A program made the translations under genes and the position numbers. This document shows, piece by piece, positions 1-21,611 of a stretch of 22,992 nt of DNA (the stretch's first letter is position 1; each line of letters starts with the position of its first letter). This DNA comes from Saccoglossus kowalevskii (lineage: Eukaryota; Hemichordata; Enteropneusta; Harrimaniidae), in the NCBI RefSeq assembly GCF_000003605.2, contig NW_003116958.1, forward strand, positions 101,700-124,691, written 5' to 3'. The notes under the pieces were generated by a model, which was not told where the DNA came from, ran no database searches, and saw nothing but the letters and a program-made list of their open reading frames with translations.

Positions 1-690
1 CATGTAGTATCTATATATGTAATATCAAAGCAATTGAACTATTGGTTTTCAACAAGAAGTCGAAAATATCACTTTTTACCAAAAATGACAAAAATATTCA
101 CCAAAATTAGAGAACTGAAGATATCATCACAAAATGAACAAATCTGAGAAAGGTCTACATGTAGTATCTATATATGTAATATCAAAGCAATTGAACTATT
201 GGTTTTTAACAAGAAGTCGAAAATATCACTTTTTACTAAAAATTACAAAAATATTTACCAAAATTAGAGAATTGAAAATATCATCACAAAATGAACAAAT
301 CTGAGAGAGATCCACATGTAGTACCTATATATGTAATATCAAAGCAATCGGACTTGCGGTTTTTAACAAGAAGTCGAAAATATCACTTTTTACCAAAAAT
401 GACAAAAATATTCACCAAAATTAGAGAATTGAAGACATCATCACGAAATGAACAAATCTGAGAGAGATCCACATGTAGTACCTATATATGTAGTATCAAA
501 TCAATTGGACTTGCGGTTTTTAACAAGAAGTCGAAAATATCACTTTTTACCAAAAATGACAAAAATATTCACCAAAATTAGAGAATTGAAGATATCAACA
601 TGAAATGAACAAACTTAAGAGAGGTCTACCCAAGGTACATATACACCAAGTATCAAAGCATTCAGGCTTGTAGTTTTCAAGAAGAAGTCG
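1..690. repeat. 157-bp tandem repeat array (at least 4 copies)
   Basis: Four consecutive copies start with catgtagt at 1, 158, 315 and 472, an exact 157-bp spacing. A degenerate fifth copy runs from about 629 to 690, where only the tatcaaagca and agaagtcgaaaa parts are still clear. Copies share the aacaagaagtcgaaaata block and differ by scattered substitutions. The array is cut by the window start and probably continues left. It lies in the sarcoglycan intron or its flank and has no coding potential. Together with 701-787 it looks like the core-repeat part of a pearl/Helentron-like element. Confidence 0.93.
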
Positions 691-700
691 AAAAAGTAAA

Positions 701-2444: not shown

Positions 2445-2645
2445 TATTGAAAAATCCATAACTTTGAGTATCCATATTGTGAGCGCTAAGTTGACAATTA
2501 TCGTAACCATTAAAAGAAGCACCAGTAAATAAAGGCATCGTTTTCTCCAACCATAGATACCGATTTTATAAATGACAGTCGCTTCTCTGTTATTTGGAGT
2601 GACAGGAGTATAACTACTCCCACTGGCTCTGCCCCTGCCTCCCAT
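2445..2645 (-). CDS. Gamma/delta/zeta-type sarcoglycan, N-terminal coding exon (partial gene)
   Basis: Reads as 67 codons in phase 0. Residues 1-36 are a hydrophilic cytoplasmic tail ending in the family block [11 protein letters not shown] (29-39). Residues 38-60 are the single signal-anchor transmembrane helix of this type II protein. The near-invariant [13 protein letters not shown] block is at 51-63. The exon stops at DFSI before a strong donor (ATA/gtgagt on the minus strand, junction 2445/2444), where vertebrate gamma, delta and zeta genes also have an exon end. The sarcoglycan complex sits in the muscle plasma membrane beside dystroglycan and stabilises the dystrophin link. The extracellular part with its C-terminal cysteine cluster is not in the window. 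This ATG gives a tail of the usual length and lies just behind a splice acceptor. The three preceding codons are also open, so an upstream coding start cannot be fully excluded. Many invertebrates have one gene for this subgroup, so I give no paralogue symbol. Confidence 0.93.
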
Positions 2646-2656
2646 TCTGATAACCT
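2646..2656 (-). other. 3' splice site and 9-nt leader of the sarcoglycan exon
   Basis: On the minus strand the sequence tgttttgacag/gttatcaga precedes the ATG. The AG lies at 2656-2655 and the exon starts at 2654. The pyrimidine tract is modest. Because the start codon follows only nine exon bases, the mRNA must have at least one further 5' exon at higher coordinates, probably untranslated as in vertebrate gamma and delta sarcoglycan genes. Confidence 0.75.
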
Positions 2657-3031
2657 GTCAAAACATACAATAGATTAGATAATTAGAAACAGCACATAAA
2701 TAATAACAGGAATGATGTATTTATTTATTTATTTATAACTTTTCTTACCATCTGGTACACATTAGGAAATTATATTAGAGTAAAATTCACCAAAAAGTGA
2801 ATGGTATATACAGTGTGGTGGACAAATTGATGTACATTGGTGTTTTGGATGGGTACTTATATTATAATACCATACACTACCCGTTATTGAAACGCTGCAT
2901 TCTCATTGGTTGATTGGTACCACATGCAGTCCTGTTTTCAGACGATAACAGGGCAGTGCTTGAGGTCAATTCAAGAGCATATGGACAAGACTGTGTCACT
3001 GTTTTCCAACATTTGTATGGACAGTTTAACC

Positions 3032-3240
3032 GTTTCACCACCAGACATTCTCACCCAAATTTGTCTGCACTTTTCTTTTTCTTCAATACTTCTGGAAATG
3101 AACTCCATGTAACAGACAAAATTTGAAACAATTTTCTATTTTTGCCCCAATCTTCTGAAGGAAAATGCAGACTATAAATGGGAACTGGTGGTAAAAAGGT
3201 AAACAAGAAAAGCACAATTATTTGTTCAGGTTTTTTACTA
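3032..3240. repeat. Dispersed repeat A, copy 2
   Basis: Diverged direct copy of 1186-1453 on the same strand, sharing several exact blocks of 10-15 bases in order. The short plus-strand open frames at 2906-3126 overlap this repeat and are probably not genes. Confidence 0.75.
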
Positions 3241-3559
3241 TTAAGATTTCTTAATTTTTTTCATTTTCATCTGGTAATTTATGTGCAAATGTCAATATAA
3301 GCGTCTTTTTCCTTTTTCTCAAGCTACCACTGTTCCTATGTTCAATTGTTGAGAATTCATGGTAATATAATTGAAATAAAGACTCCACAATGGCCATTAT
3401 TAACTTAAATTAAGTGATAACTTGGTTTGGATGATGACTAGGCTTGGACGTGTACATGTGTACGTCTCACCAATTATTGTGCACATCCCCGTACTTGCTC
3501 TGTTATCACACATTGATGGGCATCCTTCATTCCCTGAATGTAAACGTGATTTAATTGAC

Positions 3560-3708
3560 AAGACAGATTTTTTCACAAGTGAAAGAAAATTGTTAATGTT
3601 GTAGCAGCGATCATTTTACTGGTACTTCAACAATTCACAAAAATTACTAGTAGCAACCACAGTATGCTAACACCAATAAAAATGAGTAAAACAGTCACTA
3701 TTGGTCCA
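3560..3708. repeat. Dispersed repeat B, copy 1
   Basis: Similar in order and orientation to 6182-6372. Shared blocks include tttcacaagtgaaagaaa (gag in the other copy), atattgtagcag or atgttgtagcag, ttcacaaa, and atgagtaaaacagtca or atgagtaaagcagtca followed by ttggt. Copy 2 has an extra stretch near its 3' part. Repeat class unknown. Confidence 0.7.
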
Positions 3709-4270
3709 AGCTTTTTATTTCAAGACATTTGGACTATTGATGTGAGTGGGCATGATAAATGCTACACAGTTTCCATGTATAACTCATCTTAGTTGTGCAT
3801 GATAACATGTTCATAGAGTATCTAGTTTCAAGGAGTGTTCCACAGTTGCCATGTTACTGTACATGCTCTCAACAGAATGGGAGAAGGAAGGGGGAGGGGC
3901 GATTTAACAACAGGTCATTCATGAGCACCAGCACCATGTTTGCACCAGATGAATATCGTACATGTTAGTATGTTGTCCCCCCTAAGTACAGGGGTAAGTA
4001 CAGATACAATAGGGATGTAAATGATATTTTGTCCATATTTCACCATGAATGAATGAATGAATCATTTTTTATGAAAAGTTTGCGAGCTTTCAAAGTAATG
4101 TTGCATTCATATAACACAGAATCAATATGTGCAGTACAAAATTTAAGTTGGTATAGTAAAATAGCTACCTAAAACTGCTGACCGGAAATGAATCTATCGG
4201 TACACCGATTCAACCTCATTTTATGCACATGGTAGCCAAGCAGTCAGTGGAACTTTGGAAACCCCAAACG

Positions 4271-4465
4271 AGTCTATTAGATTTGCAAGCGTGGAGCTGA
4301 CATGCAATACAAGTCTAGACATGCATACTTACTTCAAATAATAGAAGTACATGTGTGAGTAATATGGTGTAACCACATTAGATTTATTAAACGTACATCT
4401 GCTGTTCTTTCAATACTAGATTGGTACATTTCAATACGAATATGTAAATGTAAATCTAATAGACT
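4271..4465. mobile_element. 195-bp MITE-like element with 14-bp perfect terminal inverted repeats
   Basis: The left terminus agtctattagattt (4271-4284) is exactly complementary to aaatctaatagact (4452-4465). Pairing extends inward to 16 of 17 bases. The interior is AT-rich and non-coding, and a tagattt motif recurs inside at about 4379-4385. I could not define a convincing target-site duplication, so the superfamily is undetermined. Confidence 0.6.
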
Positions 4466-6089
4466 GGGTTGAAATTGAAAACTGTGAACTATTTTCATCA
4501 GTCGATTTTTCACAATATGTTACCTTGACGACACCAGTGAATGACAGTCACTGGGACTGGTTGTCTTAAATATCCAATTGTGTGATGTCCCTGACTCATA
4601 AAATTTGAGAGCATTTGTCCCTTAAAGCTACAATGCGGAAATAAAGTGCACTGGTTGATTTAGACAACACTGTCTGTCGTTTGTAATATCACCAGTACTA
4701 ATTGTATGTACTGTAGAATCATTAAAGTTTGTGCATTTTTTATGTAGCATAATTTTACAGCCTTAAGAATCAAAATCAAAACTATCGATAACAATGATGC
4801 TTCTCAGTAGAATCCAACCATCAAATTAAGATTTAGGAACACCAAATTTTCATGTGTTTTGAATTCCACGATTTTTGCTTGTGAAATTAAAAACATGCAA
4901 CATGCATGTTAGACACAAATACATTTCATACGGGTCTACTGCACCAATAAGCAGTTTATAATCGTGAGTCTGAGGGACTAAGCACGGGAATAAGTCACTA
5001 ATAAAGTCATAGATTTATATTAAATCCCAACCCTGCATGGAATGACATACTTTGAGATACAATGTGGAAAGAAGTGATGATAAAACTACATGTAAGGAAT
5101 GTTGATCCTAAAACCAGCCATCCATGTGAAATTAAGAATGGTTAATGTACTGAAGATAAGACAGCACTCATTTCATACCCAATAGACACACTGTAACACA
5201 AATGTAAACAGCATTTACTCCATTATAAGTGCACATGAACCAAAAAATTGCAGTAACGCATGCTGAGCTCTAAAGTCAACTCCAGATACCATTCTCTAAA
5301 TAGTCTTTGCTCTTTCCCATTTGAATTGTTGCCAAAAATTCAAATTTTCCACCAAAATGTAACAGCAATGACATTTTTTGTCTGTTTTGGTTCTAAATTA
5401 AAATTAAATTCAGTGAATATTACAGAAAATGAGAACAAATTTACCCACATTTATGCGGGAACAAAATTTGGTGTTCAAATAGTTAAAAATAAGACTTATT
5501 TTGACACATATACCCCTGCCAACTTACATATGCCAGAGAAACGGTTGATGGCATTAATTTTTTCTCTAAAATCTGAAAATAACTGAAGAATGTGCAACCG
5601 CATTATGTCCTTCCTTCTTACATGTACCAAATTTAAATAATATCTGTAAACAGGAGAACATTTGTAAAAACCAAAATGGCAAATCATGATTTAAAATAAG
5701 ACGTACCAGTAAACTACCATGTGTGATGTCAATGCCAAGTTTGAATGTTAACAACATGTTTAATTGTTGATTTTTGGACAAAGATGGCTGTCAGTCGGTC
5801 ATTAATCAATGTAACAAAAACAATTTAACATGTACATGTATAAACACATGACTTGGTACCAACATTGAACAAAATTATTATGTAGTTTTCTTGATTTATT
5901 CTCCAGATATCGATAAAATATAGGTAAGGCTTTTGAGAAATTTGAAAGAGCAACTAATATTCTTCAAGATGGTATTTTTTATAGATTTTATTTTTTATTC
6001 TGTACGTCTGTTTTTTCCAGTTTAAAAAATATGAGCTCGCTGAAGACTTCATTCCTTGTGCATTTCTTATACTGGATACCAGCCGATAT

Positions 6090-6101
6090 CCCCCCCCCCC
6101 C
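6090..6101. repeat. Poly-C run (C12)
   Basis: Twelve consecutive C on the plus strand, followed by tcc. On the sarcoglycan sense strand this is poly-G. Such homopolymers are length-unstable and prone to sequencing error, so the count is uncertain. Confidence 0.9.
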
Positions 6102-6181
6102 TCCATAGAGACTGCGTACAGTTGATTATAGTTCCTGGGCTCCCTGTGCTCCCAACAGGGATTAAAATAATATAAACTGTT

Positions 6182-6372
6182 GTGACAGATTTTTACAAAT
6201 TTCACAAGTGAGAGAAAGTCATGAATATTGTAGCAGTGACTGCTAGTATTTCAGTGACGAGACTTTCACAAATTACGCACATCAAAAACTAAGCGGTTCA
6301 CATCACGTTCTCGTCAAGGACATCTGTTGTACTGATTGCTTTAAACAATGAGTAAAGCAGTCATTGGTTCAT
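6182..6372. repeat. Dispersed repeat B, copy 2
   Basis: Diverged direct copy of 3560-3708. The shared blocks are a cacaagtg-agagaaa block, ttgtagcagtgac and atgagtaaagcagtcattggt. Confidence 0.7.
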
Positions 6373-8065
6373 ATAAAACGGACTGACAAGAACATCAGGC
6401 AATGTACAGATAATGTATCATGTATAGCATTAATGTTTAACATCAATATTAAACAGCAGGCAGTAAGGGACAAACCAAAAAAAATAGTGAGGGCAAAAAT
6501 AGCACAACTAGTGAGTGAATGTCATGAGAAGTATTTCTATCAAACCACTATCCCCTCAATGGTTTATAAAACCCTTCAAAACACTCCCATCTATTCCCCA
6601 GAGGTTGATGAACCCATCCTAATTAGACAATCATATTAGAACCGACTGATTAGTAAGTAAGCACATTATCCTGGTTACAAATTATACCTCACATTATACC
6701 ATACTGTGAATTAAATTACTGCTAATTTTATCTCATTCCAATGTATAATACTCTGAGAAGCAGAAACATGATACGATATGATTTACAAGAACCGTTTAAC
6801 TGATACAAATGTAGGTAAAGGACAGCTATGAAGATGCTAGGGATAGTTAACACCTTTTGTAAAGAAAGACAATGGGCCAACGATATGCAGAGATCACACC
6901 TGATTCACTTACGTGGACTACTAGTATTTTGATTTCAAGCACAAACTACCAGCTTACATGTAGCTTGATCAGTTAAGTGAACAAGTTCCAAACATAGCTC
7001 ATCAATCTGAAAATCATTGATTTGAATCCAGGGGTGTCTCTGCTCTAAAAGTGTCCCATTTTTAAATATTGTGCTGGATGTTGTACTCTCTAGGATTGTG
7101 TCATAAACAAAGCAACGAGTAAACTGGCACTTTTCTAGTAAATGCATAATTATCCGTTATCAAAGTTTAGTGGACTATTAAGACAAAAAGTAATATTACA
7201 TACAATAAATATTCATTGTATCAATTCCCAAACTGGGTATTACAGGGTAATAAATTATGTGCATACCTCAGTGAACATAAGATCAGAAGCATGGTATCCA
7301 CCTTTCTATAATACATGATGCAATTATTGGTTTGTATGTGATAATGTGCACTTTTAACCTTTTGAGAGCGAGCTATTTTTTCCCACAAAACTCAGTGCAA
7401 ATATTTTCACAGACAGTTTTAGATATTGCTTCTAGTTTTTAATCAATTTTTATCAACATTTTAAGTTAACGTTTATACATGTATCAAGAGTGTTTTGCAG
7501 AATTATCACTTCAGTGGAAATAGCGAAAATAAATTCCAAGCCAAAATATAGTATTTTCAGGTACTCCGGTGGCCTAAAACAATTACAACTTGACAAGGCA
7601 CTCTTGACAATAAGAAGTTCCCAAGATGTCATTATCTCCAACCCAACCAAACCCATAGTAGAAAAAAAAAACAATAGTCAAGAAAATTCAAATACTTGAA
7701 ATTCAGCAAAGCAACACATATGGTATCTAGTGTCAAGTATACCCCAGTATATGTACATGATGCTGACTAAAGCACTCTGATGCACACACAATGACAGAGC
7801 TTGTCAAATACACAAAATTGTGCAGTCAGAACTATTTATATGTACTCATAATGCACATTAACAACTCGACCACAGTGTGTTTCAATGCTATTATTACATT
7901 TCGAACATAATGTTATAACCTTGTATCCACTTTCACCCAGACATTCCGTTATTCACACCGATACATTTCAAAAATGCATACCAGCGAGTTATTGTTACAG
8001 AACAATTCAACACTTTCTAAAATCATTACGAAAATAATTGACTTAATGCCATGCAGCAATAATGA

Positions 8066-8353
8066 TCAACAAAATTGCATTACTAGTTTTAAACTGGGCA
8101 TACATGTATGCAATATGATGGTTCTTCCATCAACTATGAAGTGTTCCACAAAGAGCATGTGCGTCTCTTGCAAGACGCTTGCAGGGTATGCATCAAGAAG
8201 GGCATCAAGTTCCAAGCGAAATAATGAAATCTGCTGCGAAATCATCTCTATTTGCCCGCAATTTGTCATGAATGAAACTATGCATGCTAAAGAGGTTATT
8301 ACACAACAACCTTGTGATATCGCTGGGATAGTAGTGTAATAACCCCTAAGCAT
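8066..8353 (-). other. Unrecognised open frame, possible decayed exon or element fragment
   Basis: A 95-codon frame on the minus strand overlaps a 121-codon frame on the plus strand (7974-8339) in a stretch richer in G+C than its surroundings. The minus-strand product has a mixed hydrophobic and charged composition, with segments such as RLELDALLDAYPASVLQE that look more protein-like than the average chance frame here. A stop lies immediately upstream of the ATG. I recognise no family. No convincing splice sites bound it. It lies within the inferred sarcoglycan leader intron, so it is most likely a repeat-derived remnant or chance. Confidence 0.15.
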
Positions 8354-8662
8354 TTACTACTAGTTTGCAGGATAATTTTGGCAGACAGACACAATTACGC
8401 ATGTAATGTGATGCAAATAATGTGAAGTCTGAAAATCTGACAATGGTTGAAAAGAGCCTAGTTTGTTATACTAATCCTGGCTGTCAATCTATGATCGAAA
8501 ATGTCTAGTCAGTGTCGATCTGGCTGTAATCAGTGTTCTCACAGCAACATGGCTAATTTACATAACACTAAAACATATTAACTACCTCTATTGTATTCAG
8601 TTTTATTTTTTCTACAAAATTATAAGTAGGAGACTATTACATAACAGTTTCTAAGCTTTGTT

Positions 8663-8689
8663 GACATGGCAGTCATGACCGCCTGTCTA
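8663..8689. repeat. 37-bp minisatellite, left part (interrupted array)
   Basis: One partial unit (gacatggcagtcatgaccg followed by cctgtcta) matches the array at 9342-9508. It ends where the TIR element at 8690 begins, so the element appears to split a single minisatellite. Confidence 0.85.
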
Positions 8690-9333
8690 TAGTGGCGTTC
8701 ACGTTAGAGATCTCAGTACGTGCAGAGACTCAGGACTGAGTCGGCACGTGTCGAAAAAAACTCGTTCTCTGTCCCAATATATGCTTGGGACCGAAACTTG
8801 GCACGTGTCGAGATTTGCTGCCTGAACGCCCGGCACGAGCCAAAATCACGCCCTCGGTGGTAAGAGAACATACGCTAATTCATACTACATGCTGCAGCAA
8901 GAAATGATGATGACAGGAATGAAGATATACTAGTATATGTACGGATGCTGTAGTAATGAATGAAATGAATGCAAACCGTTGCAGCAATGCATATTTATGC
9001 GCTGCTGCAACCGCCATTTTCTTGCAATGCTACATTGACGTGAAAAATAATTGTTTTTGAATCTTCTTTGCCGTTCATGTGCACGATGACTTGTAATAAA
9101 AACTATAACAACAAATGGATACAATTTCAGTATAGCAATTATTATCATATGCGTATTGTTTTCCATGTTTGGGCCAAATAACAGATCGACGAATGAGGGC
9201 GTGATTATGGCATGAGCTGAGTCGGTCCTAAGTGGGTCCCGAATAACGTGAACGCAATTGCTGTAATCCCTCTGCAAACACAAAGGATTAAAAATTTCGG
9301 CACGTGCCGAGATCCCGTAACGTGAACGTACTA
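8690..9333. mobile_element. 644-bp TIR element inserted in a minisatellite, flanked by TA
   Basis: Termini are inverted. The left end, with gcgttcacgtta then gatctc and acgtgc (8690-8723), pairs with the right end, with gcacgtgccgagatc then gtaacgtgaacgtacta (9300-9333). A second inner block also pairs: 8839-8855 against 9195-9211, 16 of 17 bases. The inverted arms are thus roughly 140-165 bp with internal gaps. TA dinucleotides flank both ends (8688-8689, 9334-9335), as a TA target duplication would. The arms are rich in CpG and in cacgtg motifs, unlike the surroundings. A 141-codon minus-strand frame (8930-9355) overruns the element end and shows no transposase motif. This is best called a non-autonomous MITE-like element of uncertain superfamily. 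Confidence 0.75.
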
Positions 9334-9335
9334 TA

Positions 9336-9508
9336 TGTGATGACATGGCAGTCATGACCGCCTGTCTAAGTTTGTGTTGACATGGCAGTTATGACAGCCT
9401 GTCTAAGTTTGTGATGACATGGCAGTCATGACAGCCTGTCTAAGTTTGTGATGACATGGCAGTCATGACCGCCTGTCTAAGCTTGTGTTGACATGGCAGT
9501 TATGACCA
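9336..9508. repeat. 37-bp minisatellite array (about 4.5 copies)
   Basis: gacatggcag recurs at 9342, 9379, 9416, 9453 and 9490, an exact 37-bp period. Each unit contains the near-palindrome ggcagtcatgaccgcc. The last unit decays after ttatgacc. The array continues the partial unit at 8663-8689 on the other side of the inserted element. Confidence 0.93.
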
Positions 9509-12500
9509 ACACTGCATATTTTTACTACTGATCACCAGGACCACTCCATAGCAGCCACTCAACAATCCAGGAACAAATATAGCTATGCACATATTGTACA
9601 AGCGTGTGGATAAGTGCAATATTGCAGTACCTAGCAACAACTGAAAGCTGCGGCTGTTACTGAAACAATAACTGGGATATACAAGCATCGTTATATTTTA
9701 ATGACTATTTAATGCAGCTGTACCAATCAAGTCCCATAGAAACCAACAAACTAACTACAATACAAGGCAATGTTCTGTAAACAAATTTACATAGGCATAA
9801 TTTGTACATTATTAGCAGTTGTTTTGTTTATTTCACATCAAAATGACTTTTGTAAGGCAGGTGGTATATGAGCCCCATAAAACTTATGGAGAACACATGT
9901 GCAAAGATGTATATAGAGGATATCTCAAAAGTGAGCCTACAATGTCAAATTTAATAAATTTAGAACATATGAAATCACTTCACAAGTTTAATAAATCTAT
10001 GGTTACCTCCTGTGACTAATAGAGTTGGGTTATTTTGGGAGCCACCCATCTATTTATGGTGCTTGGTCCAATAATTACCAATTTTGGAGTCAATTAATAT
10101 GTAGCTTTTACACAAACTGAAATGGCCACTAGACATACAGACTTGTGGACACACTAAGGTTGTGGGAATTAGAAATTGCGCCTCAGTTTATGTGGCTTTC
10201 TACATGGAATAAAAGCACATCTCTGATAGAAGCACACATATGATTGATTATGATTGATCGTCAATACGAATTTCTGTTGTTAATGTAAGCCCATTCGCTA
10301 ACAACAGATCAAATACATTGAAAGAAATTTGAAAGTATCAGAAATATTCGCACTAATATAATTCCTCAAACTTTTTCCAAAAGATATAGCAAACCAATTA
10401 TTACACTTCTTTAAACACAAAATTATACTATGCTATATGGGATAAATAGAATTGTTGAACATCTGCTATTGAAAACCAAATCTAGCATAGAAACGGGAGT
10501 GCAATGATCACCTTTTATACACTGTTCTTTAATGAGGTATTCAAATAAGAGCTCTCTCTTTCAGCATAGAGATGAGCTAATTAGTAGAACAGTGATCATA
10601 TTCATTAATTTAAATTTTTTTTTTTTAGTTTTTCACAATTTAAACGAATATGATCTTCATGAGTATCAGTAGCATCAATAAAATGGTACACAGTCACCAA
10701 ATCAGTGACTAGTAAACTTGTATTTGTTTCTGTGTACAGAAATATATTTTTGCTTTCAATGTCCCAGTTTTTTTCCTATTTGTTAAGTGGAAAGAATAAA
10801 TTCCTTTAAAGGCCCATACCACTTTTCAAGATTAAATATGACAAATGGAAAATACCGATTATCTTGCAGCCATGTTACAAAACATGGACCATCTATATAT
10901 AACTACATGTATTGGCAAGTAAGGTTATTTTTACACAAGAATTGAAGTCCATTTTTTACTATACATGTTTAGATTTTATGATGAAATATGCATGTTGTAG
11001 ACAAAATTTAACATTCAAATGCCATTAACAGAAGTGCTCATAAATAACTTGTAATATGACCTAAATTAACTTACTTTCATTCAGTGATTGTGTTAGCATA
11101 CCTATCACTGCCGCGACAGTGTTATTATCTATGTATTTAAATCAGTACGAGGCACAGAAACCAACTTACATGTATTACACCGGAAGATGACAAATAGGAA
11201 CATAATTTGCATACAATTAGCATAAGAAAATTCAATTGTTTGATCAAATTTGCATTTTCTAAAAAAACACACGATAGGTGGATGCCAAAAGAAGTATACA
11301 GGCAGGGCATCAAAACCCAAATCCCTTGTGTTAGATAGTACGTGCATACATCAGATTGACATAATTCAACTACAGTTTTGTATAGTGAATCACATAGCTG
11401 TATACACCTCAGCTGTCATGTGTTGAGTTGCACACAAAGGTCAGGAGACAACATTCCTCAATAGATATCTACTATAAATGTACAGTTATTATTTCAATGT
11501 TTTCATGGGCTCATTAATGAACCAATGAGTTCTAATTCTAAGTACTCAAAATTAAAACACTTTAATAATCAAGTCTTTTATAGAATAATTTGAGTTCCCA
11601 TTTTATACTACATGTATCAATACATTCATGTACATTCCTTTTGAAGACAAAATAAAAAAACATCACCATTCACACCCTGGCTGTCGGGAACATATGTAAA
11701 TAGGATGGCTTACAACATGTATTTGTACTCCTAAGTGTTTGTACATGTATGGCCCAAATTACACACTTAAGTGGTCTGAGAAAATTAAACAGAAACACAT
11801 CGTTACATTAAAAAGGCTTCCTGTTTTAGAGTAGGTGAGACCATGCCAATGCTGTTAGGATTCTTGTTGAAGAATCTTGTCAGTGGTGGTGAAGGTATGT
11901 CTAATACTGCTAAAACTGCCCTGACTCCAGTAAAATTCTGGTCTGTGATTGACTTCTTTGACTAGCTTGGGGTTAGGACCAGTTTAAACAATCCGATTTA
12001 TCAAATGAAACTACAACTGATTAATCTGATCACAAAATAGGTTTACATAATCAGATTTATGTCATTAGACTAATCTGACAAAATTGAACATGCTCACTAT
12101 TCAAATCTGAACAGACATCACATTCTTCAGTTTAGATCAGATTCATCAGAAGCTAAAGTTGCATCTTTGCCAGCCAGGGTTCATTTATTCAGCTGTTGCC
12201 TCACTATTATATGTTGAATGAAATAAAACACAGTGGCACTTGCTCTGATGCGTTACCATGGTAAAATAAACACAAGTCACATGTTGTGACGTGTTTCCAT
12301 GTCAGTTCAGCTATAAGGTTATATACATGTAAGTCTATCGGTTTAAATTTGTTTAAAAACCCATAACAGAAACCCTGTATTCTAAGAACCCCTGTGAGAT
12401 GGAAACCAATACATCGCTCTGATTGGCTTGTACATGCTCTCAGAATGGTATAGTATTTGTGCTAGTTGATTTTTGTATATCAACCATGTTTAGGATCAAA

Positions 12501-13989
12501 ATATCATAACTTTGCCAACAAAATTTACTATTATCGGATCTGCGATTTCTGGTAAAATATCAAAAATGTTCTAACTTGTATGATTTAGATACACAAAAGC
12601 TGCATATCATGCATGATTTTTGTGATCTAATATTAAATTTAATTTGCTTTTAATTTTTTTTAAAGAGTTTCATTATTATTAAATCCTTTTGATATGAGGA
12701 AACCAACCCATTCATGCATATTTTTTGCTTTTAATAAACACAACCCACAGACTCACTTGGTTGTACTGTATTGACTGTGCCTCATTTTCAGTTATAACAT
12801 TTTTGGTGAATTTAACGAGTGAGATTGAGCAATAAATACATGTAGTTCATAAATATAGAAACTTATGTGTGCTGTATAACATCAATAACAGCATGTGTTA
12901 TTTCAAGTATGCCTAATATTATGTGTTTTTTACTGCAAACATGCAATTTCAAAAACATTTTTTTTCATTAAATTGTTTTTCCCAATTTGGCCAATAATTG
13001 TGGATAAAACATTCAGTTTCATTCAAGTCTCATTGTAATTTTGTGTAATTTTGTTTAGGGTGGCAATAAATTTTAGTTTGGGGGATAGTTATTGGAACAA
13101 CACATACTGTATGAGAAATATGAATGACAGTTTATAGAAAGTTTTCAACAAATATAATAATAATATAATAAATTGTTTAACGTTTTTCTTCAGCCTGGAA
13201 TTATGTATCATGTATCTGAAAATAGTTAGATGGTGTCCAGTAGAAAGAAAAGTCATCACTACTATTGCCTCCTGAGAATCTACATCTTCAAACACTGCAT
13301 TCTTTGTCTTTGAAGTGTGTCAGTATTATAAAAAGCTCTATAATTCTGTTCTAATAGCTGAGACAAATTGCTGTAAATTTGATTGTCAAAATGAATATAC
13401 TAAGACAAAGAAATATTTGATTAAATGAACTGTATGTCAAATACAGAGTACACATTTTTGAGTACAATTTTCCTCTTACAACGACAACGACGAGACATTT
13501 TTCCCTGTAATATATTTTCCCTTTCATCTTTGATGACATGAGCAAGGTTATAAAAAGCCACTAAAAAAATGAATAATGTCAATTTTTTAATACTAATTGA
13601 CCAACAAGTTTCTTGCAAGACAGTTTTGAGATGTTAAGCTTTATCCTTGCTGTAGGAAAATGCCCTAGAACAGTAGTCAAATCATGCTATTTTTATAATA
13701 AATAATATTAATTTTCTTCAAACTGAGTATGATCACCCCAGATTTTTATTTCATGTTCTTTATCTATGCATTTTGTCTCCAAAAAGGACATACATGTACC
13801 ATGATAAAAAGTGATGCATGTTCAGACATAAAAGTCTTGCTACGTCACATATCCGACAATGGAACTGTTTTTGCTCCCCCTAGAGCTTTTCCATTCATTT
13901 TACTTATAAGGATAAATTTGTCGTTATATTCCTAAAGACACGATCAAAGCAGATTTTATTCCCTCAATACTCTTTCAGAATGAAGACAA
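9509..13989. other. Inferred leader intron, middle part (nothing coding recognised)
   Basis: About 4.5 kb of AT-rich sequence with only short, unrecognised open frames. Notable contents are a T12 run (10615-10626), six of the window's TACATGTA octamers between 10904 and 12844, and a cluster of AATCTGA/TCAGATT motifs at about 11990-12150 flanked by related cagttta-containing blocks. I see no exon, tRNA or other RNA gene. Confidence 0.5.
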
Positions 13990-14401
13990 TTTATTTTGTT
14001 TGAGTGTCACTTGTACTAATGTAATCAGCATGCTCAGTCGTACTTGCAGAGAATAAAACGTAGTCACAATATTTTTTATTATACTGTAAACTTTTTTTTA
14101 TTCTTGCTGGAATTAATTTCCGTTGAAAAGATATTTTAGTTATTTTATGTGAGGTTTATTTTCACTGATTCTTGAAGAGTTTAATGTAAAACATAGAAAA
14201 AAAGTTTATTTTGTTTGAGTGTCACTTGTACTAACGTAATCAGCATGCTCAGTGGTACTTGCAGAGAATGAAATCTAGTCACAATATTTTTTATTATACT
14301 GTAAATTTTTTTTTTTTATTTTAGCTGAAAAGATATTTTTGTTATTTTATGTGAGATTTATTTTCACTGATTCTTAATGTAAAACATAGAAAAAAAGTTT
14401 T
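13990..14401. repeat. Two-copy tandem duplication, about 215-bp unit
   Basis: Copy 1 begins near 13990 and copy 2 near 14205. The offset is 215 bases, measured from ttattttgtttgagtgtcac in both. Shared blocks continue through taatcagcatgctcagt, gtacttgcagagaat, tagtcacaatattttttatt, aaaagatattt and acatagaaaaaaagtt. Copy 2 is shorter because of internal deletions and has a longer T run. Both copies are AT-rich and non-coding. Confidence 0.88.
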
Positions 14402-14611
14402 TTTCACCGGATTTTATTTTTATTGTTTGATCACTTCAGCAAAAATTAATGTAGTGTAAAAATAGTGTATTTAAGACCACAACTTGACTATCCATACTCC
14501 TACACCACTTATGAATATTAATTGCACACCACAAATGTAGACCTCAATCCAAATAAAATACAAGCAATACCTAGATGTATGCAGTGGGACACAGGGAGAA
14601 ATCACATCATA

Positions 14612-14811
14612 TACTGTAAAACATGTCTTTTTAGCCAACATGTCATTTTAGCTAATTTAGCTGACCTGTAATTTCGCTTATTCAAGATGTTGCTAATTTA
14701 GAATAAAGTATATTCTCACAATGAGACTGTTGGCATTTTAGCTAAATTAAGATTTTGCTAATTCATGCATTGAGTCACTGGCATGTAGCTATTTCAGTGT
14801 ATTTTACAGTA
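14612..14811. mobile_element. 200-bp MITE-like element with TA-CTGTAAAA termini
   Basis: tactgtaaaa at 14612-14621 is complementary to ttttacagta at 14802-14811. If the outer TA is the target duplication, the TIR is CTGTAAAA. The interior contains repeated tttagctaa motifs on both strands, including two cattttagctaa direct copies near 14643 and 14733. No coding capacity. The superfamily is uncertain; a TA duplication would be compatible with Tc1/mariner-like elements. Confidence 0.55.
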
Positions 14812-14853
14812 TTCTATTCAAGTTTTAGACTATGGGAATATTGAAACAGTAGA

Positions 14854-14880
14854 GGGGGAGGGGGAGGGGGAGGGGTAGGG
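14854..14880 (+). repeat. G-rich GGGGGA repeat with G-quadruplex potential
   Basis: Three tracts of five G, then one of four and one of three, separated by single A or TA, on the plus strand. This fits the four-tract G-quadruplex pattern with very short loops. It lies on the strand opposite to sarcoglycan transcription, that is, the template strand of the inferred intron. Confidence 0.85.
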
Positions 14881-15166
14881 TAAGTGAAATAAATGGATAG
14901 TTGATGAGAAAATGACGACACACATCTGTCAGCTGAAATCTTAGAGTACATACCTATTATAGGTGATAAGTACTATCACGCTGAACCCCTAATAAAAGTT
15001 CAATCTCTACATGTTGTGTGAGGTTATGCATTACAAACTATAGCTGAGGTCCTACAAGGTTAATACAGTTTATCGTTTATTTATCAAGACATACAGAATA
15101 GAATAACACCAGTAAAATCAAGAAAAATTGATAATAAAATTTCGGATAAGAAATTAATTTGAATTG

Positions 15167-15448
15167 CTAAATTTTGCTTATTTCCTGATAGTTTTGGTCG
15201 ATTTCCTCGATAATTAAATTCATAGTGTTTATTTTTTGCTCATAAAGTCTGTTCTCTATCAGCCACATTTCCTCTTTCATTTGTCTGCAATATTCACATA
15301 CTAGTAATGTCTGTTTAACTTGTTTTTTTGGGTACATTGCATACATCAGCCCGGTTCTGAATTGAGCATTTGCTTTGATAAATTGGTGATACACTATGTA
15401 ATGTTCCAGTGATAGTCTTATTATGTACAAATTGAATTCAGACTTCAC
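15167..15448 (-). other. Unrecognised 93-codon open frame in the inferred leader intron
   Basis: Starts at an ATG and ends in a stop. The C-terminal half (about residues 50-93) is rich in E, K, I, L, N and Q and could form an amphipathic or coiled-coil helix, with a CEYC pair at about 51-54. I recognise no domain or family. A possible acceptor-like cttag lies just upstream on the minus strand, but no convincing donor follows. It could be an undescribed small gene nested in the intron on the same strand, a remnant, or chance in AT-rich DNA. Chance is the default view. Confidence 0.18.
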
Positions 15449-15850
15449 TTTCTAAGGCGAGTGATCACTCCATTTGCCTATCATTTGCCCAAATTAAGAC
15501 CCAAAAGAGCTACCGGTAATTATCACACTCCCAAACCATACTATTTTGTATTTTGCACAGCTCCTCTCATCAATCACATTACTGCATCCTGAAAAGCCAT
15601 TTTTAGCACACCATCCATTTTTAAAAGCCATTTGTGCTTTCTTTTTCATTGTTATCTACCCGTGTATTACAAATATTTTGAGATAAAACCCATCCAGAAT
15701 TTTATAATTCTTTGTACTTGCTGTATTTGTAGACTAAAATTTGGTAGGGGACCATGTGTGTATTTATGCCTGGAAAATATCAACAATCAGTGAAATACAT
15801 AGTTAAAAGTCAGACAACATGAAACATTGACAGACGTTTAATGTATTACA

Positions 15851-15985
15851 AGTGTTTATATAAACTATCAATTCAAAACTGACATCTCACTAATGGATGT
15901 CACTCTCACCATAAAACACTAGCAAAATCAATTCTAGTTCTATTTAAATACTGAACTTCATAAGCAATATGGTTATTTTTATATT
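15851..15985. repeat. Dispersed repeat C, copy 1
   Basis: Direct copy of 16525-16654. Shared blocks include cactctcaccataaaaca, tatttaaatactgaactt, and taagcaatatggttattttta. Separated from copy 2 by about 0.5 kb of unrelated sequence. Confidence 0.85.
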
Positions 15986-16524
15986 GCGTGGGAAATTTCA
16001 CAGCAATCTTATCTTCAATACAGCAAATCCTGTCTCTATTTTCATTTTCTCATGACTTAAATTACAAAGAGATTAAATAAATCAGCACAAAGACATTTCT
16101 AATCTGAATTCTACCATGGCAGATATGGTTTTGAAATCTCAAAAAACAATAATATGAAAATGATTGATATAAAACAGTTGCACAAAATTTGAAGACCACA
16201 GCTGATTTATAGCGGTACAATAAAGATACAATCTTACTTGAAAAAAAGATATTCTGTCAATCTGCCTACAAAACAACCTAACCAACACAAAATGGACAAA
16301 ATGCTTACATGTAGAGTCTATTTGTAAGCAATCTAAGTGTTATTAATAAATTTATACAAAGGCCATCAGTTCAAAGTTGAACATCATACAGTCACTTGCA
16401 GTTTTCCTAATAATTAACATACATTGTAGCATTCAATACACAGTAAATAACACAAATATGTAGAGAACAGGAAAAGCTATCAATGACAAAATCAGCTGTT
16501 TGGAATTCACATTTCTGTCTGTGA

Positions 16525-16654
16525 AATGTTTATAAAACCTATGAACTAAAAACTGACTAATGGTTTTCACTCTCACCATAAAACAAATTTTAAAATAATT
16601 CCGGTTATATTTAAATACTGAACTTGATACATGTAAGCAATATGGTTATTTTTA
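16525..16654. repeat. Dispersed repeat C, copy 2
   Basis: Direct copy of 15851-15985 on the same strand. It carries an inserted catg that creates a TACATGTA octamer (16628-16635) absent from copy 1, which shows that such octamers can arise within an existing repeat. Confidence 0.85.
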
Positions 16655-18810
16655 GATAAATTATCAATTCTTTGAGCCTGAAATTTGCAATGTCAGTCCT
16701 TATAGAATAGAAAAACATTAGCTGAATGAATGAATGAACATTGTACATAGACACACACTGGAAGCATTGAATTATACCCAATAGCAATCAATATTATGAA
16801 GTGTTTTTGAATGGCATTAGATGAAACATACCCGGACATGTTACAGGTCTCTGAGTTTGGAATACCTCAATAATTATTTAATTTCTTGCTCTGCATGTGT
16901 GCGTGATGAATGCAGTGATTGTATTTCACTCACTAATTACTAGTTGACAGCAAGTGAATGAACCATTCAATATTTTATACAAACTAGGTCAAGGACCTGT
17001 CACATGACCACAAATTACACTCACCATGGTAGATAGGTTTCTTGATAATGAGACAAATTAATTAATTGTTTACAATCTTTTGGGATCATATCCTCTATTT
17101 GACATGGTAGAAAGGATCTCATTGCAAGTAGTCAGATAATAAAAGCAAATATATCTATTTACAGCATTGCTAGTGGAGTACAGAGTTCAGTTTGATGCAG
17201 TTAAAAATACATTGATTGCAGTGGACAGCTGACGATTCAATGGTTATATTTAATATAAACATTTGTAACTCAACCAACGGATATATGATTGAATTTTGTA
17301 TAGCACTTCAAAGTTGTAATATCTCCCATGAGAGCCACAACAATAACAAGTTATCCTCAAGAATCTGTCTTATTTGCATAACTGGTTTATTATTACAGAT
17401 ACTGTATTTGCTCTATTAGAGGCGCATCTCTAAGAGAAGAGCACATAAACCAAAAATTGCATCTATGCTTGATTATTGAAATACAGCTTTTATGAACGGT
17501 AGCAGCAACTGTAAGCACACGAGTTATGTTACTCATAATGTTCTATAAACATGTCATAGTTACATATACAACAAGTGTAAAATTCATTGGTTGTCTACTT
17601 AAGATTTGAACACAGGTTACTAATGACTGCAGCGTTTTAAAAAAGCTTATGCGAAATTCAAGTGTGCTCGCTATTAACCATGACAATGCTTTAGGAAAAT
17701 TAATTGCCACATAATGTGATGAAAAATATTAATTTATTTTTTGGCGAAAAATAACAATGTTATCATTATTTTTAATGTCTATGACGATTTTTTTTGCACC
17801 ACTGGCTGTGACTGGCATAATATTGATAAGTAATATCAATTCAAGATAAAATATCAATAATGAATGAATAATATTATAGAAACTCACTAAATTAAAAAAT
17901 CTGATTCATATCAATAACAATATACGATTTTTTCAGCCCAACATGTAATCGAGCAAAAAGTTGAAAATATGAGAAAATATTTTCACCACATTCTGATGGA
18001 ATAAACAAATACCCGGTATAAAATGAACATTTTGCAATCAAACATTTTTTTAAATCAAATCGTTGACTGGTGACCCATTTTTTTTCTTTTTACACACAAG
18101 TATGACTATAACCTTCAATGAAACTTTTAAACTAGCGGTCATGTATTTATGAAAGAAGATTCTTATTGGCAACTTATTGGGTCAGAAGATACTTTTTGCT
18201 GAACTCTAGACCATCCTGCATTTAAAAATCAACAAATGAGATTGAAGAAAATAGATTCCAGACTTCCAGAATTTGCAGAGAATCTTGTTTTATCCTACTT
18301 CAATAATTCCACAAAAAAAGATATAATTCACACTCAGATTTCAACATTATAAAAACTGAGCTATGCTTGAATCTCCAGGATTCATGATTCATCTTGTATA
18401 AATACAAAAACCCAGAAGTTATGGGTACTTGAAACGAATAAAAATATTACAGAAAATCTTTAAATAGGCATTGCCTGTCTGTCAATAGTCATTTGAGAGG
18501 CCCCAACATCACACTATTTATAATATCAAATAGATTACCACTATCTACTGTCTGACTAATTATCTGTGATGGGCAAAAAGAAAAAGAATTATCGTATCAT
18601 GGGTGACATTGGGGGAGAGAAATTTATCAACTGAAAACAAAAATCGTCTACACTAGTTCCTGTTTGATTGCTATTGATGTTATGGGGGGGGGGGGGTTAC
18701 TAACAACACATATGCTGTTGGGTTGCTTAGCATTCCAAGATATGCATCAATGGGTTAGACATAAAACATTCCACACACATATTGATGGTGTATCATAATA
18801 AAAACAATTC
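16655..18810. other. Inferred leader intron, distal part (nothing coding recognised)
   Basis: About 2.1 kb of AT-rich sequence. It contains a GAAT microsatellite (about 16725-16738), a G13 run (18684-18696) and only short chance-like frames, such as 17216-17419 on the plus strand. No recognisable exon, RNA gene or regulatory module was found. Confidence 0.45.
18684..18696 (+). repeat. Poly-G run (G13)
   Basis: Thirteen consecutive G. The length is likely unstable and error-prone. On the sarcoglycan sense strand it reads as poly-C. Confidence 0.9.
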
Positions 18811-18871
18811 ATTCCCCACAGTGCCAATGTACTCAATGGAATACTCATTCCAATATGGCACTATGGGAAAT
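18811..18871. repeat. Nested imperfect hairpin
   Basis: Outer arms attccccacagtgcca (18811-18826) and tggcactatgggaaat (18856-18871) pair at 14 of 16 positions. Inside them, tggaat (18837-18842) and attcca (18847-18852) pair perfectly around a 4-nt loop. This may be a small foldback repeat. I see no evidence that it is a microRNA, because the arms pair only in two short blocks. Confidence 0.6.
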
Positions 18872-19380
18872 TATCACAGCTTTGAAAATAATCTGTCAAA
18901 TTTATTTGCTGGTTTACTAATTGTTCTCTCAATTAAGTTTCCATGACACAACTGTAAATTAATGGCAGAAATATTCAAGACGTTTTAATTTCATTTATAT
19001 GATTTGTTTAAAAGGTTTGTTTTCAAGTTAATTTAGCCTATTCGCTACAGGTATTCTTTATTTTCATTTTGAAACATATCCCTTCTTCGTCGTCAATAAA
19101 ATATGACAGTAATTTATTCATATAACACTCCCATTCCGTTTAGTTATCTCAAACAAATCGAAAGGCATTTGTATGTAGCTGGACTAGTGAATATGACACA
19201 AACCACATGGCCGACAGTAAACATGATTAGAATTCTGAATGCTATAAAAATAATTCTGAATAATGAAATGAAGGGTATGATTCAAATCTGAATTAATAGA
19301 TCTGTATTCATTAATTAACAGATTGTTTAAAAGAATAAATGCATGTTATGTTGTTGATTGGAGATTAGTCATTTTAACCA
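18872..19380. other. AT-rich stretch, nothing recognised
   Basis: A short unrecognised plus-strand frame (19103-19291) is present but has no motif or splice support. No repeat, RNA or promoter element could be supported. The change to CpG-richer sequence begins at about 19410. Confidence 0.4.
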
Positions 19381-19830
19381 TACTGCCAGTGGTTATAATT
19401 TGGCAAACTGACGGGTGATCGACAAACTAGCTAATATACCGAGCGTTCGTAGTTTTGTGTCACCAAAATATACTTTTACATTTAATATCGGCATCGAACA
19501 ACGGCTAGTAAACGACATAATACGGGTAACACGACAAAGCATCTGTATTATAGTTGGGTGAACCGCACGAAGCAGTAAAACTAACCGAACGTAAACAAGC
19601 CGCCGAATTCTTTGCATAGTAAACTGAAGGGTTAGGAAGACCACACAGTTCAGTGGACAACGACAACAAAAACACGAACTCTGCCCAGAAATCGGAAAAG
19701 CTTTAGTGACTATAGACTGGTACCAAATTCCCACAATCACATAATGTCCCACAATCAAGGATCTAGTATAAGTGCACTCAAAGCACCGCTGAAAGCGTTA
19801 AATATACAAGAAAAGGGAAACTTCACTGAC

Positions 19831-19855
19831 CTGCACACTCTCACGATCAACTCTC
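19831..19855 (-). other. Candidate untranslated first exon of the sarcoglycan gene
   Basis: A minus-strand donor CAG/gtcagt lies at 19831/19830. A TATAAATA lies about 25-30 bases upstream of 19855, so a short leader exon ending at 19831 is plausible. It would splice to the acceptor at 2655 across an intron of about 17.2 kb. The transcription start is only estimated from TATA spacing. No transcript evidence is available, and intermediate leader exons could exist. Confidence 0.3.
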
Positions 19856-19876
19856 TGGTGCGGGCTGTGAAAATGA

Positions 19877-19884
19877 TATTTATA
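19877..19884 (-). promoter_or_regulatory. TATA box candidate on the minus strand
   Basis: TATAAATA reads on the minus strand from 19884 to 19877, within gcggtataaatatc. A CCAAT lies 12 bases upstream on the same strand. A good splice donor follows about 46 bases downstream. The arrangement points leftward, toward the sarcoglycan gene. Confidence 0.45.
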
Positions 19885-19896
19885 CCGCGTTTTTCT

Positions 19897-19901
19897 ATTG
19901 G
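19897..19901 (-). promoter_or_regulatory. CCAAT box (minus orientation)
   Basis: ttctattggtcg on the plus strand reads cgaccaatagaa on the minus strand, a good NF-Y core with purine-rich flanks. It is close to the minus TATA candidate and about 100 bases from the OST3/OST6 start, so it could serve either gene. Confidence 0.5.
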
Positions 19902-19930
19902 TCGAAAAATACAGGTCAGTTTGTAATTAA

Positions 19931-19935
19931 CCAAT
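19931..19935 (+). promoter_or_regulatory. CCAAT box (plus orientation)
   Basis: ttaaccaatcgacc is a strong NF-Y-type CCAAT context, 65-69 bases upstream of the OST3/OST6 ATG. With the inverted CCAAT at 19897 it forms a pair about 34 bases apart, a spacing often seen in NF-Y-driven divergent promoters. Confidence 0.55.
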
Positions 19936-19970
19936 CGACCTCAATCTTTCTTATAGATGATTAAGTGGAC

Positions 19971-19980
19971 TGCGCATGCG
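19971..19980 (+). promoter_or_regulatory. NRF1 palindrome
   Basis: TGCGCATGCG contains the palindromic GCGCATGC core of the NRF1 (nuclear respiratory factor 1) consensus. It ends 19 bases before the ATG, so it lies at or just upstream of the expected transcription start. NRF1 sites of this kind are typical of housekeeping CpG-rich promoters in animals. Confidence 0.7.
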
Positions 19981-19995
19981 TTGATGGTACTTGAA

Positions 19996-20007
19996 CAACA
20001 TGGCGGA
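19996..20007 (+). promoter_or_regulatory. TISU/YY1-type start element overlapping the ATG
   Basis: CAACATGGCGGA matches the TISU consensus SAASATGGCGGC at 11 of 12 positions and contains the YY1 core ATGGCGG. TISU elements mark genes with very short 5' leaders that use scanning-free initiation. This fits the NRF1 site only 20-29 bases upstream and fixes the chosen start codon. Confidence 0.7.
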
Positions 20008-20104
20008 ATCAACGAGTACCGGGATATGGTTCTTTTTGTTATTATTCGTTATAGTTAATATTATTGCTTCAAACACGCCACTCGTAGATGCCAAAAAGAA
20101 AGAA
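20000..20104 (+). CDS. OST3/OST6 gene, exon 1 (signal peptide)
   Basis: Thirty-five codons from the TISU start to a consensus donor GAA/gtaagt, phase 0. It encodes a short polar N-terminus, the hydrophobic stretch [15 protein letters not shown] (9-23) and the basic KKKE end that in the family follows signal cleavage. Confidence 0.92.
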
Positions 20105-21611
20105 GTAAGTTATAAACCGATCTGTTTTAATTGTCGATAGTTTGCAATTCTGTTGCATCGAGATTCGTTGAACACGTAGTGTACGCACAAAACTCCAGAT
20201 GTACAAATTTCATTGGTTCATTCATGGACAGTGTTGATATATGGTGCCTCCCATTGACTGGAATTGTTTTTGTTCTTCAAATAAATATATTACAATTTAA
20301 CTGAGAAAATTTTATGCAGATCAACGAGTTTGATTATACCTTTATTTTTGTGGTATCATTTTTGTAGTGTTGTTTCCCAATTTTATAGAATCCTTCACCT
20401 TCACAAGACTTGTTTCACTTTCACTGATAAATTTTGTGCAGAGCAAGATGCATATGCAATTTGAATAGTATTGTGATTTTGAACACCATGTGTTTCGTAT
20501 TTGGAATGTGTGTGTCTGTATCCCCTGTGGAATGCACAGGGGAGAGCATTGGAGTTTGTGATCAGAGGAAGTGAAACTTTCTGCAATTATAAACTATTTC
20601 AGTTTTCTCTCTGTGTGTTCTTGTAGCAGGTACTGGGGGATAGAGTTAAGCAGCTAATGGACTGGAATATGAAGAGATCTGTTATCAGACTAAATGGTGA
20701 CAAATTCCGGCAATATGTGAAAGCAACGCCTCGAAACTATTCTATGCTAGTAATGTTCACAGCTATGCAGCCACAGAGACAATGTACAGTGTGCAGGTAA
20801 GTACTAATTACATGCTGGTTACAAATCAGTATGGTGCTCAACACTTTTCATCAGTAAGTCTTGATCTAGCCTGACATGTACGCGTGAGTAGGCCTGACAG
20901 TAGGCTAACGCCTGACAGAATAGTGTATGTCATGTGAATATTGAGAATTCGCAAAGTTCACACCTTCTTTCAATGAGTTCAATGAATATTCATTTTGGTG
21001 GTCATGGTAACACCTTCAATCAAAGCTGTGTTTGCATTGTTGGCAAATATCACAGACCGTTTTCAACAAGATGATAAATATTATGTCAACAAATAAACTC
21101 TGTCATGAATTGTTACTCTTTGATGGCTGTCACTATCTGACGTTCCTGCAATTTGATTAGTACCAACAAAAAATCGTCAAGGGAAGTGAAAAACTACATC
21201 GTTCTATCAGGCTTGTATTGGGTTTGGAGCACCACAGAGGGCGCCACCTCATCCGGCTAGTCTTTATCTATTTATCAAGTTTTTGTTTTTTTTCTTATCA
21301 GACAAGTTAATGATGAATTCCAGATCCTTGCCAATTCGTGGAGATACTCACAGGCTTACAGCAATAAGCTATTTTTTGCCAGTGTAGATTATGATGAAGC
21401 CCACGATGTGTTTCAATCTGTAAGTATAAAGTTACTTTCTGGTTTACTGTAATAAATTGTTCTTTGCAAGTGTGGAAAATAAGATTATGATGAAGCCAAT
21501 CCTCAATTTCATCACTTATTTATTGTAGCTAAAACTGAACTCTGCGCCTGCTTTGATGCACTTCCCACCGAAAGGAAAAGCAAAGAAAGGAGACACTTTT
21601 GATATCCAAAG
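20000..21611 (+). CDS. OST3/OST6-type oligosaccharyltransferase subunit, TUSC3/MAGT1 family (exons 1-4, 3' part missing)
   Basis: The joined exons 20000-20104, 20627-20796, 21302-21419 and 21529-21611 encode 158 complete codons plus a split Arg. Residues 9-23 are the hydrophobic core of a signal peptide, with likely cleavage near A23 or A30 before KKKE. From about residue 36 a thioredoxin-like ER-lumenal domain follows. It contains RLNGDKFR, the glycosylation sequon NYS (N72), the redox motif C88-T-V-C91, [22 protein letters not shown] and the NSAP cis-proline segment (P138) before MHFPPKG. In the family this domain forms mixed disulfides with substrates so that cysteine-near sequons are glycosylated by the STT3B-type oligosaccharyltransferase. 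A role in magnesium transport has also been proposed for TUSC3 and MAGT1. Vertebrate relatives are about 330-350 residues, with four C-terminal transmembrane helices that are absent here. Intron phases are 0, 2, 0, 2. Intron 4 runs past the window end. TUSC3 and MAGT1 are vertebrate duplicates, so I assign no single symbol. Confidence 0.95.
20105..20626 (+). other. OST3/OST6 intron 1 (522 nt)
   Basis: gtaagt donor and ttgtag acceptor. It contains a perfect 8-bp hairpin (20522-20542, cccctgtg / cacagggg). This lies inside a looser inverted pair, gtttcactttcactgat near 20411 and gatcagaggaagtgaaac near 20559, which may be the ends of a small foldback repeat. The 61-codon minus-strand frame here (20401-20586) follows that repeat and is not taken as a gene. 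Confidence 0.8.
20627..20796 (+). CDS. OST3/OST6 gene, exon 2 (CxxC exon)
   Basis: 170 nt, phase 0 in and phase 2 out, donor CAG/gtaagt. It encodes residues 36-91 and two bases of R92, including NGDKFR, PRNYSM and RQCTVC. The acceptor is a tandem tagcag. The upstream AG gives EQVLGDRV, which aligns without a gap to the vertebrate family, so I chose it. The downstream AG would drop one Gln. Confidence 0.95.
20797..21301 (+). other. OST3/OST6 intron 2 (505 nt)
   Basis: Bounded by a gtaagt donor and a strong acceptor, gtttttttttcttatcag. Three cctgaca motifs occur at about 20869-20920. Nothing else was recognised. Confidence 0.85.
21302..21419 (+). CDS. OST3/OST6 gene, exon 3
   Basis: 118 nt, completing R92 and encoding residues 93-131, donor TCT/gtaagt, phase 0 out. 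It carries [16 protein letters not shown] and [18 protein letters not shown], which correspond to the helix and beta-strand after the CxxC motif in the thioredoxin fold. A partial copy of this exon lies in the following intron. Confidence 0.95.
21430..21497 (+). pseudogene. Partial, frameshifted copy of exon 3 inside intron 3
   Basis: Intron 3 (21420-21528, 109 nt) contains a diverged copy of exon 3 bases 21342-21401 at a constant offset of 88. After an 8-base insertion near 21476-21483 the offset becomes 96, and the last 15 bases (gattatgatgaagcc) are identical. In the parental frame the copy reads [12 protein letters not shown], against [12 protein letters not shown] in the exon. Over the eight codons N to V there are six base differences, all synonymous. 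The copy lacks an acceptor or donor of its own, and its frame is broken by the insertion and by the stop in the exon 3 read-through frame. It is best seen as a remnant of a tandem exon duplication that once stayed under coding constraint. Confidence 0.8.
21529..21611 (+). CDS. OST3/OST6 gene, exon 4
   Basis: 83 nt from acceptor tattgtag to donor CAAAG/gtaaga, phase 0 in and phase 2 out. It encodes residues 132-158 and two bases of the next Arg: the [17 protein letters not shown] segment with the cis-proline, then GDTFDIQ. In relatives the next exon begins with a GF-A/S-AEQ block, which I could not find before the window end. Confidence 0.94.

Follow-up and report, generated by a model that had tools for sequence, protein, structure and literature searches.

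Why do a sarcoglycan gene and a gene for an oligosaccharyltransferase subunit stand head to head in a hemichordate, when the same two families are also neighbours in human? The question is raised by 22,992 nucleotides of the Saccoglossus kowalevskii genome (NCBI RefSeq assembly GCF_000003605.2, contig NW_003116958.1, positions 101,700 to 124,691), here called the window and numbered from its first letter. The window contains the divergent 5' parts of a gamma/delta/zeta-type sarcoglycan gene (minus strand) and of a TUSC3/MAGT1-type gene of the OST3/OST6 family (plus strand). We conclude that the pair probably adds one more case to the known class of ancient microsynteny, and that an ancestral linkage of the two families is likely. 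A compact promoter stretch shared by both genes may hold the pair together in this animal.

Identity and arrangement of the two genes

The first coding exon of the sarcoglycan gene (2445..2654, minus strand) has an acceptor before 2654, 9 nt of 5' untranslated region (UTR), an ATG at 2645 and 67 codons that include a transmembrane segment. Its final coding base, 2445, is followed by a GTGAGT donor. The exon matched PF04790 above the Pfam cut-off (E 1e-15, 58.2 bits, cut-off 32.5), and its closest PDB relatives, presumably human chains, were delta sarcoglycan (34/49 identical) and gamma sarcoglycan (36/46).

Further exons of this family lie on the same strand of the contig (C1059; 238,542 bases, 68,969 of them N), across the assembly gap at 89674-101699. 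The exon at 88532-88666 (88.5 kb) matched PF04790 with 44.9 bits, again above the cut-off, and the exon at 89484-89618 (89.5 kb) had no Pfam match alone; joined, the two were identical to delta sarcoglycan at 39/69 and to gamma sarcoglycan at 32/67 positions. A third exon at 87643-87837 (87.7 kb) was not picked up by the contig motif search for later exons and was later shown by Pfam. It covers positions 211-258 of the 259 in the PF04790 profile (26 bits, under the whole-protein cut-off), and its CxC and two later cysteines align with the end of delta sarcoglycan (E 0.00046). A C-terminal cysteine cluster is a mark of the gamma/delta/zeta family. The four exons, on the same strand and on either side of the gap, thus belong to one sarcoglycan gene that runs leftward over it.

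The plus-strand gene begins with an ATG at 20000, and its four exons (20000..20104, 20630..20796, 21302..21419 and 21529..21611) join in frame to 157 codons. The acceptor of exon 2 is a NAGNAG (20627-20629), so that a start at 20627 with one extra glutamine is possible. The protein matched PF04756 above the cut-off (E 1.3e-39, 136.9 bits, cut-off 27) and also the thioredoxin family PF00085 (E 4.9e-07). The CxxC motif, encoded by exon 2, is kept, with CTVC aligned to CSVC of TUSC3. Identity to the PDB chains, which are presumably human as well, was 86/127 for TUSC3 and 85/149 for MAGT1, the MAGT1 alignment being longer and extending into the N-terminal region; when nearly equal stretches were compared, the values were 85/125 and 80/126. 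Members of the OST3/OST6 family carry C-terminal transmembrane helices. Neither these nor any other later TUSC3 exons were found by the contig motif search, and a gap (124692-141784) follows the window, which is exactly the one piece between the two gaps. Viral and plasmid collections contained no relative of the protein.

These family matches and the in-frame splicing bear out the identities and the divergent arrangement that a preliminary description of the window had proposed. It had also made the conserved linkage depend on there being no gene between the two, and none was recognised. The window has 171 stop-to-stop frames with 45 amino acids (aa) or more; among the 150 longest, only families of the two genes matched Pfam below E 0.002. 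Seven weak matches (DUF5422 at E 0.0021, six others at 0.014-0.036) are of the size that chance gives in 150 scans. Rfam reported no family at gathering score in the window, and a tRNA scan of it found none. Frames of at least 70 aa numbered 32, compared with a mean of 22.5 in 50 random sequences, and the longest frame (152 aa) exceeded the random mean maximum of 125 but not the largest random value, 161. The pair could still have between them a gene that is non-coding or weakly conserved.

Copy number was assessed by searching the whole assembly (572,110,611 bases, 4,830 contigs) exon by exon. PF04790 gave two matches from three candidates (the window exon and the 88.5-kb exon), and PF04756 gave two matches from four candidates, both of them window exons. 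Both families therefore matched contig C1059 only, and both genes look single-copy in this genome.

Human counterpart and vertebrate paralogues

The human side of the comparison, the neighbourhood of SGCZ and TUSC3 at 8p22, was stated in the preliminary description and is supported by four papers. DLC1, SGCZ and TUSC3 are the three genes of the 8p region from 13.0 to 15.7 Mb (PMC2576333), and KIAA1456, DLC1, C8orf48 and SGCZ are the four genes of a neighbouring 8p interval (PMC3464216). A reported deletion situated 319 kb upstream of TUSC3 takes in three of the eight exons of SGCZ together with miR-383, which lies in intron 3 (PMC4005464). Another covers the whole of TUSC3, along with miR-383 and a portion of SGCZ (PMC6791072). 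Taken together, the two deletions suggest that SGCZ is oriented with its 5' part towards the 5' end of TUSC3. The adjacency of a sarcoglycan and an OST3/6 gene is thus present in two distant phyla, with the SGCZ part around miR-383 upstream of TUSC3 in human. The spacing differs greatly: in human, 319 kb separate the end of the SGCZ deletion from TUSC3, whereas the two starts may be about 150 bp apart here. An Rfam search that covered the window and 8 of the 24 pieces of the contig found no miR-383, and no family reached gathering score in these pieces.

The vertebrate paralogues point in the same direction. At Xq21.1, MAGT1 is found alongside FGF16 and ATRX (PMC3916240). A further paper describes the flanks of FGF9 and FGF20 as related and dates FGF9 to the vertebrate genome duplications; the flank of FGF16 is less clear in it. 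The position of MAGT1 with FGF16 and the related FGF9 and FGF20 flanks make a linkage before the vertebrate genome duplications plausible. They also make it plausible that SGCZ-TUSC3 is the vertebrate copy that kept the old order, as had been suggested, the less clear FGF16 flank notwithstanding.

In human, FGF20 lies near TUSC3 and FGF9 near SGCG, and DLC1, STARD13 and STARD8 lie on 8p22, 13q13 and Xq13. A literature search for SGCG near FGF9 turned up no account. These positions are consistent with a single ancestral block that contained both families, with the links of SGCG and FGF20 taken as background.

Chance or common ancestry

Two genes could also have become neighbours independently here and in the vertebrate lineage. 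For this one pair, the probability of matching human divergent neighbours by accident is about 1e-4 (18,000-35,000 genes, 3 by 2 paralogue combinations). If all gene pairs of the genome are scanned, however, roughly 0.5 to 1 such accidental match is to be expected. Taken by itself, the agreement of two genes is therefore suggestive and not decisive. The claim of conserved microsynteny stands in so far as the pair is adjacent both here and in human, and is qualified by this expectation. A warning about single cases is the report that the vertebrate ancestor kept 70 inherited blocks, compared with 110, 120 and 124 in shuffled genomes (PMC8851819).

The likelihood of common ancestry is raised beyond that of the pair alone by the related FGF blocks, one of them carrying MAGT1, and by a possible linkage to TRMT9B. 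The latter comes from a clean Trm9-like first exon at 188133-187972 of the contig (minus strand), 66 kb from the TUSC3 ATG. We tentatively favour TRMT9B (KIAA1456) over ALKBH8 for this exon, as a lead. An own-genome search with the exon returned one candidate, itself, and the contig motif search gave no later Trm9 exon. A search of the genome with Methyltransf_11, in which none of the 26 matches (50 candidates) fell on C1059, did not settle the choice between the two names. As the related FGF blocks and a possible link to TRMT9B speak against it, we consider coincidence very improbable, and we infer that the linkage of the two families is probably ancestral. Wider linkage could not be shown in the hemichordate, as the FGF matches in its genome (nine from 16 candidates) were all on other contigs (C1514, C2951, C2659, C3698 and C2167).

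Ancient metazoan microsyntenic gene pairs were reportedly described by Irimia in 2012 and by Simakov in 2013 and 2015. The present pair resembles them in that unrelated adjacent genes have kept their order between phyla. Our literature search, which did not extend to the main lists of ancient pairs, returned no account of SGCZ-TUSC3 synteny or of an FGF9/16/20 paralogon. The pair was not named in titles or abstracts among the matches listed, and we do not claim that it is unpublished.

The stretch between the genes and the persistence of the pair

If the linkage is ancestral, what has kept it? The preliminary description had offered a shared promoter, or regulatory elements in the long sarcoglycan introns. 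Upstream of the sarcoglycan coding exon, a putative first intron of 17 kb (2655..19830, minus strand) would extend to a putative non-coding 5' UTR exon (19831..19870, minus strand). No other gene was recognised inside this intron. The exon ends in CAG before GTCAGT, its start is uncertain, and it is a guess from this splice donor, which also sets the 5' boundary of the intron. Read this way, the sarcoglycan and OST3/6 starts may lie within about 150 bp of each other in this animal, in a compact stretch at 19831-19999.

The stretch contains a TATAAA (19879..19884, minus strand) within TATAAATA, a weak candidate for a sarcoglycan core promoter, and CCAAT boxes at 19897..19901 (minus) and 19931..19935 (plus). 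It also contains the NRF1-like GCGCATGCG (19972..19980, plus), which is the only such site in the window and one of five on the contig. Given the motif density of the window itself, the probability of finding TATAAATA in 19831-19999 is about 0.06, that of TATAAA about 0.33 and that of two CCAAT boxes within 169 bp about 0.06. The NRF1-like site was the least expected motif (P about 0.007, uncorrected for the number of motifs tried). The CpG count of 19500-20099 ranked 7 of 448 among 600-bp segments of the window. A bacterial-type promoter scan was uninformative. Judged from sequence, motifs and CpG would agree with a single stretch that contains two divergent promoters, and they show no more than that. 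Known bidirectional promoter pairs are similar in their divergent starts (here predicted), CpG-richness at the level of the window, and NRF1-like and CCAAT elements; they differ in that the sarcoglycan start is here a prediction, and in that one gene of the present pair is muscle-biased in expression and the other broadly expressed. We rate the existence of a shared promoter in this animal at just under an even chance.

A shared promoter may thus apply to the hemichordate as a cause of linkage, at the level of prediction, and does not apply to human, where the SGCZ deletion lies as far as 319 kb upstream of TUSC3. With the human genes so far apart, the pair cannot be kept together there by a common promoter, and its linkage in human needs another cause or none. 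This bears on a second possibility, that an ancestral linkage without any selection has simply remained unbroken down to this animal and to human. Such passive retention differs from our explanation in the holding force only. It is favoured by the human distance (PMC4005464) and by the lack of SGCZ expression in two rearranged breast lines and in the normal line HB4a, the reference for TUSC3 expression (PMC2576333). The Trm9-like gene, if it is TRMT9B, has moreover switched sides. The very close predicted starts in the hemichordate look like those of a constrained pair and speak against it. On balance we regard passive retention as quite possible.

Alternatively, enhancers belonging to one gene could act on the other from positions within the long first intron of the sarcoglycan gene or from the stretch that separates the two. 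The putative 17-kb intron would offer room for such a regulatory block, and the mechanism has been described for other ancient pairs (PMC8851819). The searches gave no direct sign of it, with Rfam empty in the window and in the contig pieces covered. Neither of the two genes is known as a classic developmental regulator, which also counts against this mechanism, and we consider it unlikely.

A bolder version of the promoter hypothesis is that the sarcoglycan and the OST3/OST6 oxidoreductase have been coupled by one shared promoter at least since the ancestor of the deuterostomes. The reason would be that sarcoglycans, as N-glycoproteins with cysteines, depend on that subunit for their glycosylation. 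Vertebrate SGCZ-TUSC3 would then be a relic after the promoter was split. We hold this version to be improbable.

The explanation we prefer joins ancestral linkage with a compact promoter in this lineage. The pro-orthologues of SGCG/SGCD/SGCZ and of TUSC3/MAGT1, the latter the OST3/OST6 thioredoxin-like subunit of the oligosaccharyltransferase, would already have been neighbours in the ancestor of the deuterostomes. Of the copies produced by the two genome duplications of vertebrates, the one at 8p22 (SGCZ-TUSC3) would have kept both genes, and the SGCG, SGCD and MAGT1 copies would each have lost the partner. In the hemichordate, with starts probably within about 150 bp of each other, a break within 19831-19999 would harm at least one gene; we infer both the non-coding sarcoglycan exon and the role of the shared promoter in holding the pair together in this lineage.

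In addition to the chance expectation given above, several points weigh against this explanation. The adjacency comparison covers this genome and human, that is, one invertebrate. The copy-number search recovered two of the four known OST3/6 exons and two of at least four sarcoglycan exons, so that a divergent second copy of either family could be missed. The promoter motifs are individually weak, and the CpG count of the 400-bp piece around the promoter stretch ranked 101 of 1,668 over the contig, where the stretch is therefore not outstanding. The sarcoglycan start is predicted, and a start near the coding exon instead would leave 17 kb between the genes; no shared promoter survives in human. 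The sole PDB match of the Trm9-like exon, a tRNA methyltransferase chain that is presumably Trm9, was weak (E 0.49), and the exon had no Pfam or NCBIfam match. The gene could be ALKBH8, and it lies on the TUSC3 side here and on the SGCZ side in human. Finally, a scan of 300 of the 3,060 selected frames from the rest of the contig, with single checks in addition, revealed neither an FGF gene nor one resembling DLC1. Taking all of this into account, we regard the preferred explanation as a whole (ancestral pair, 8p22 copy kept, compact promoter holding the pair here) as moderately probable.

Other features of the window and contig

Window positions 1-694 are a 157-base tandem repeat (4.4 copies) adjoining the assembly gap. 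The second CpG peak of the window is a repeat-like element near 8651-9350. Within it, 8690-9350 is CpG-rich with matching inverted arms, resembles a non-autonomous DNA transposon and adjoins a 37-base tandem array (9336-9507); a similar unit just ahead of it was seen by eye. A direct duplication of roughly 170 bases (13985-14390) was also read by eye.

Elsewhere on the contig, SLC6-type transporter exons were found on the minus strand at 2.6 and 7.8 kb and on the plus strand at 63, 69 and 71 kb; the two groups, about 60 kb apart, are perhaps two related genes. A phospholipase A2 exon (PF05826) lies at 149 kb (minus) and lipoyl synthase at 218 kb (plus). The contig also has an OCIA-domain frame and weak single matches, including an integrase zinc-binding domain (4.1e-05).

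In the same assembly, the mitochondrial COX1 frame (C4830) contains nine TGA, no AGA or AGG and ten ATA codons. Most of the ATA codons are at sites that are presumably isoleucine in other animals; ATA as isoleucine is a mark of echinoderms and hemichordates, so that the codon usage points to the Ambulacraria and probably to a hemichordate.

Implications

The hemichordate pair serves as an outgroup from which to trace two human families with links to disease, the sarcoglycans on the one hand and TUSC3 and MAGT1 on the other. As both genes look single-copy and are adjacent here, the order seen in SGCZ-TUSC3 is probably the ancestral one, and MAGT1 and SGCG/SGCD would be duplicates that dispersed. 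New in this respect is a Trm9-like first exon on the same contig as the pair, the identity of which (TRMT9B, that is KIAA1456, or ALKBH8) is unproven. The pair is also a simple test case for why gene pairs persist even though their spacing differs greatly between lineages.

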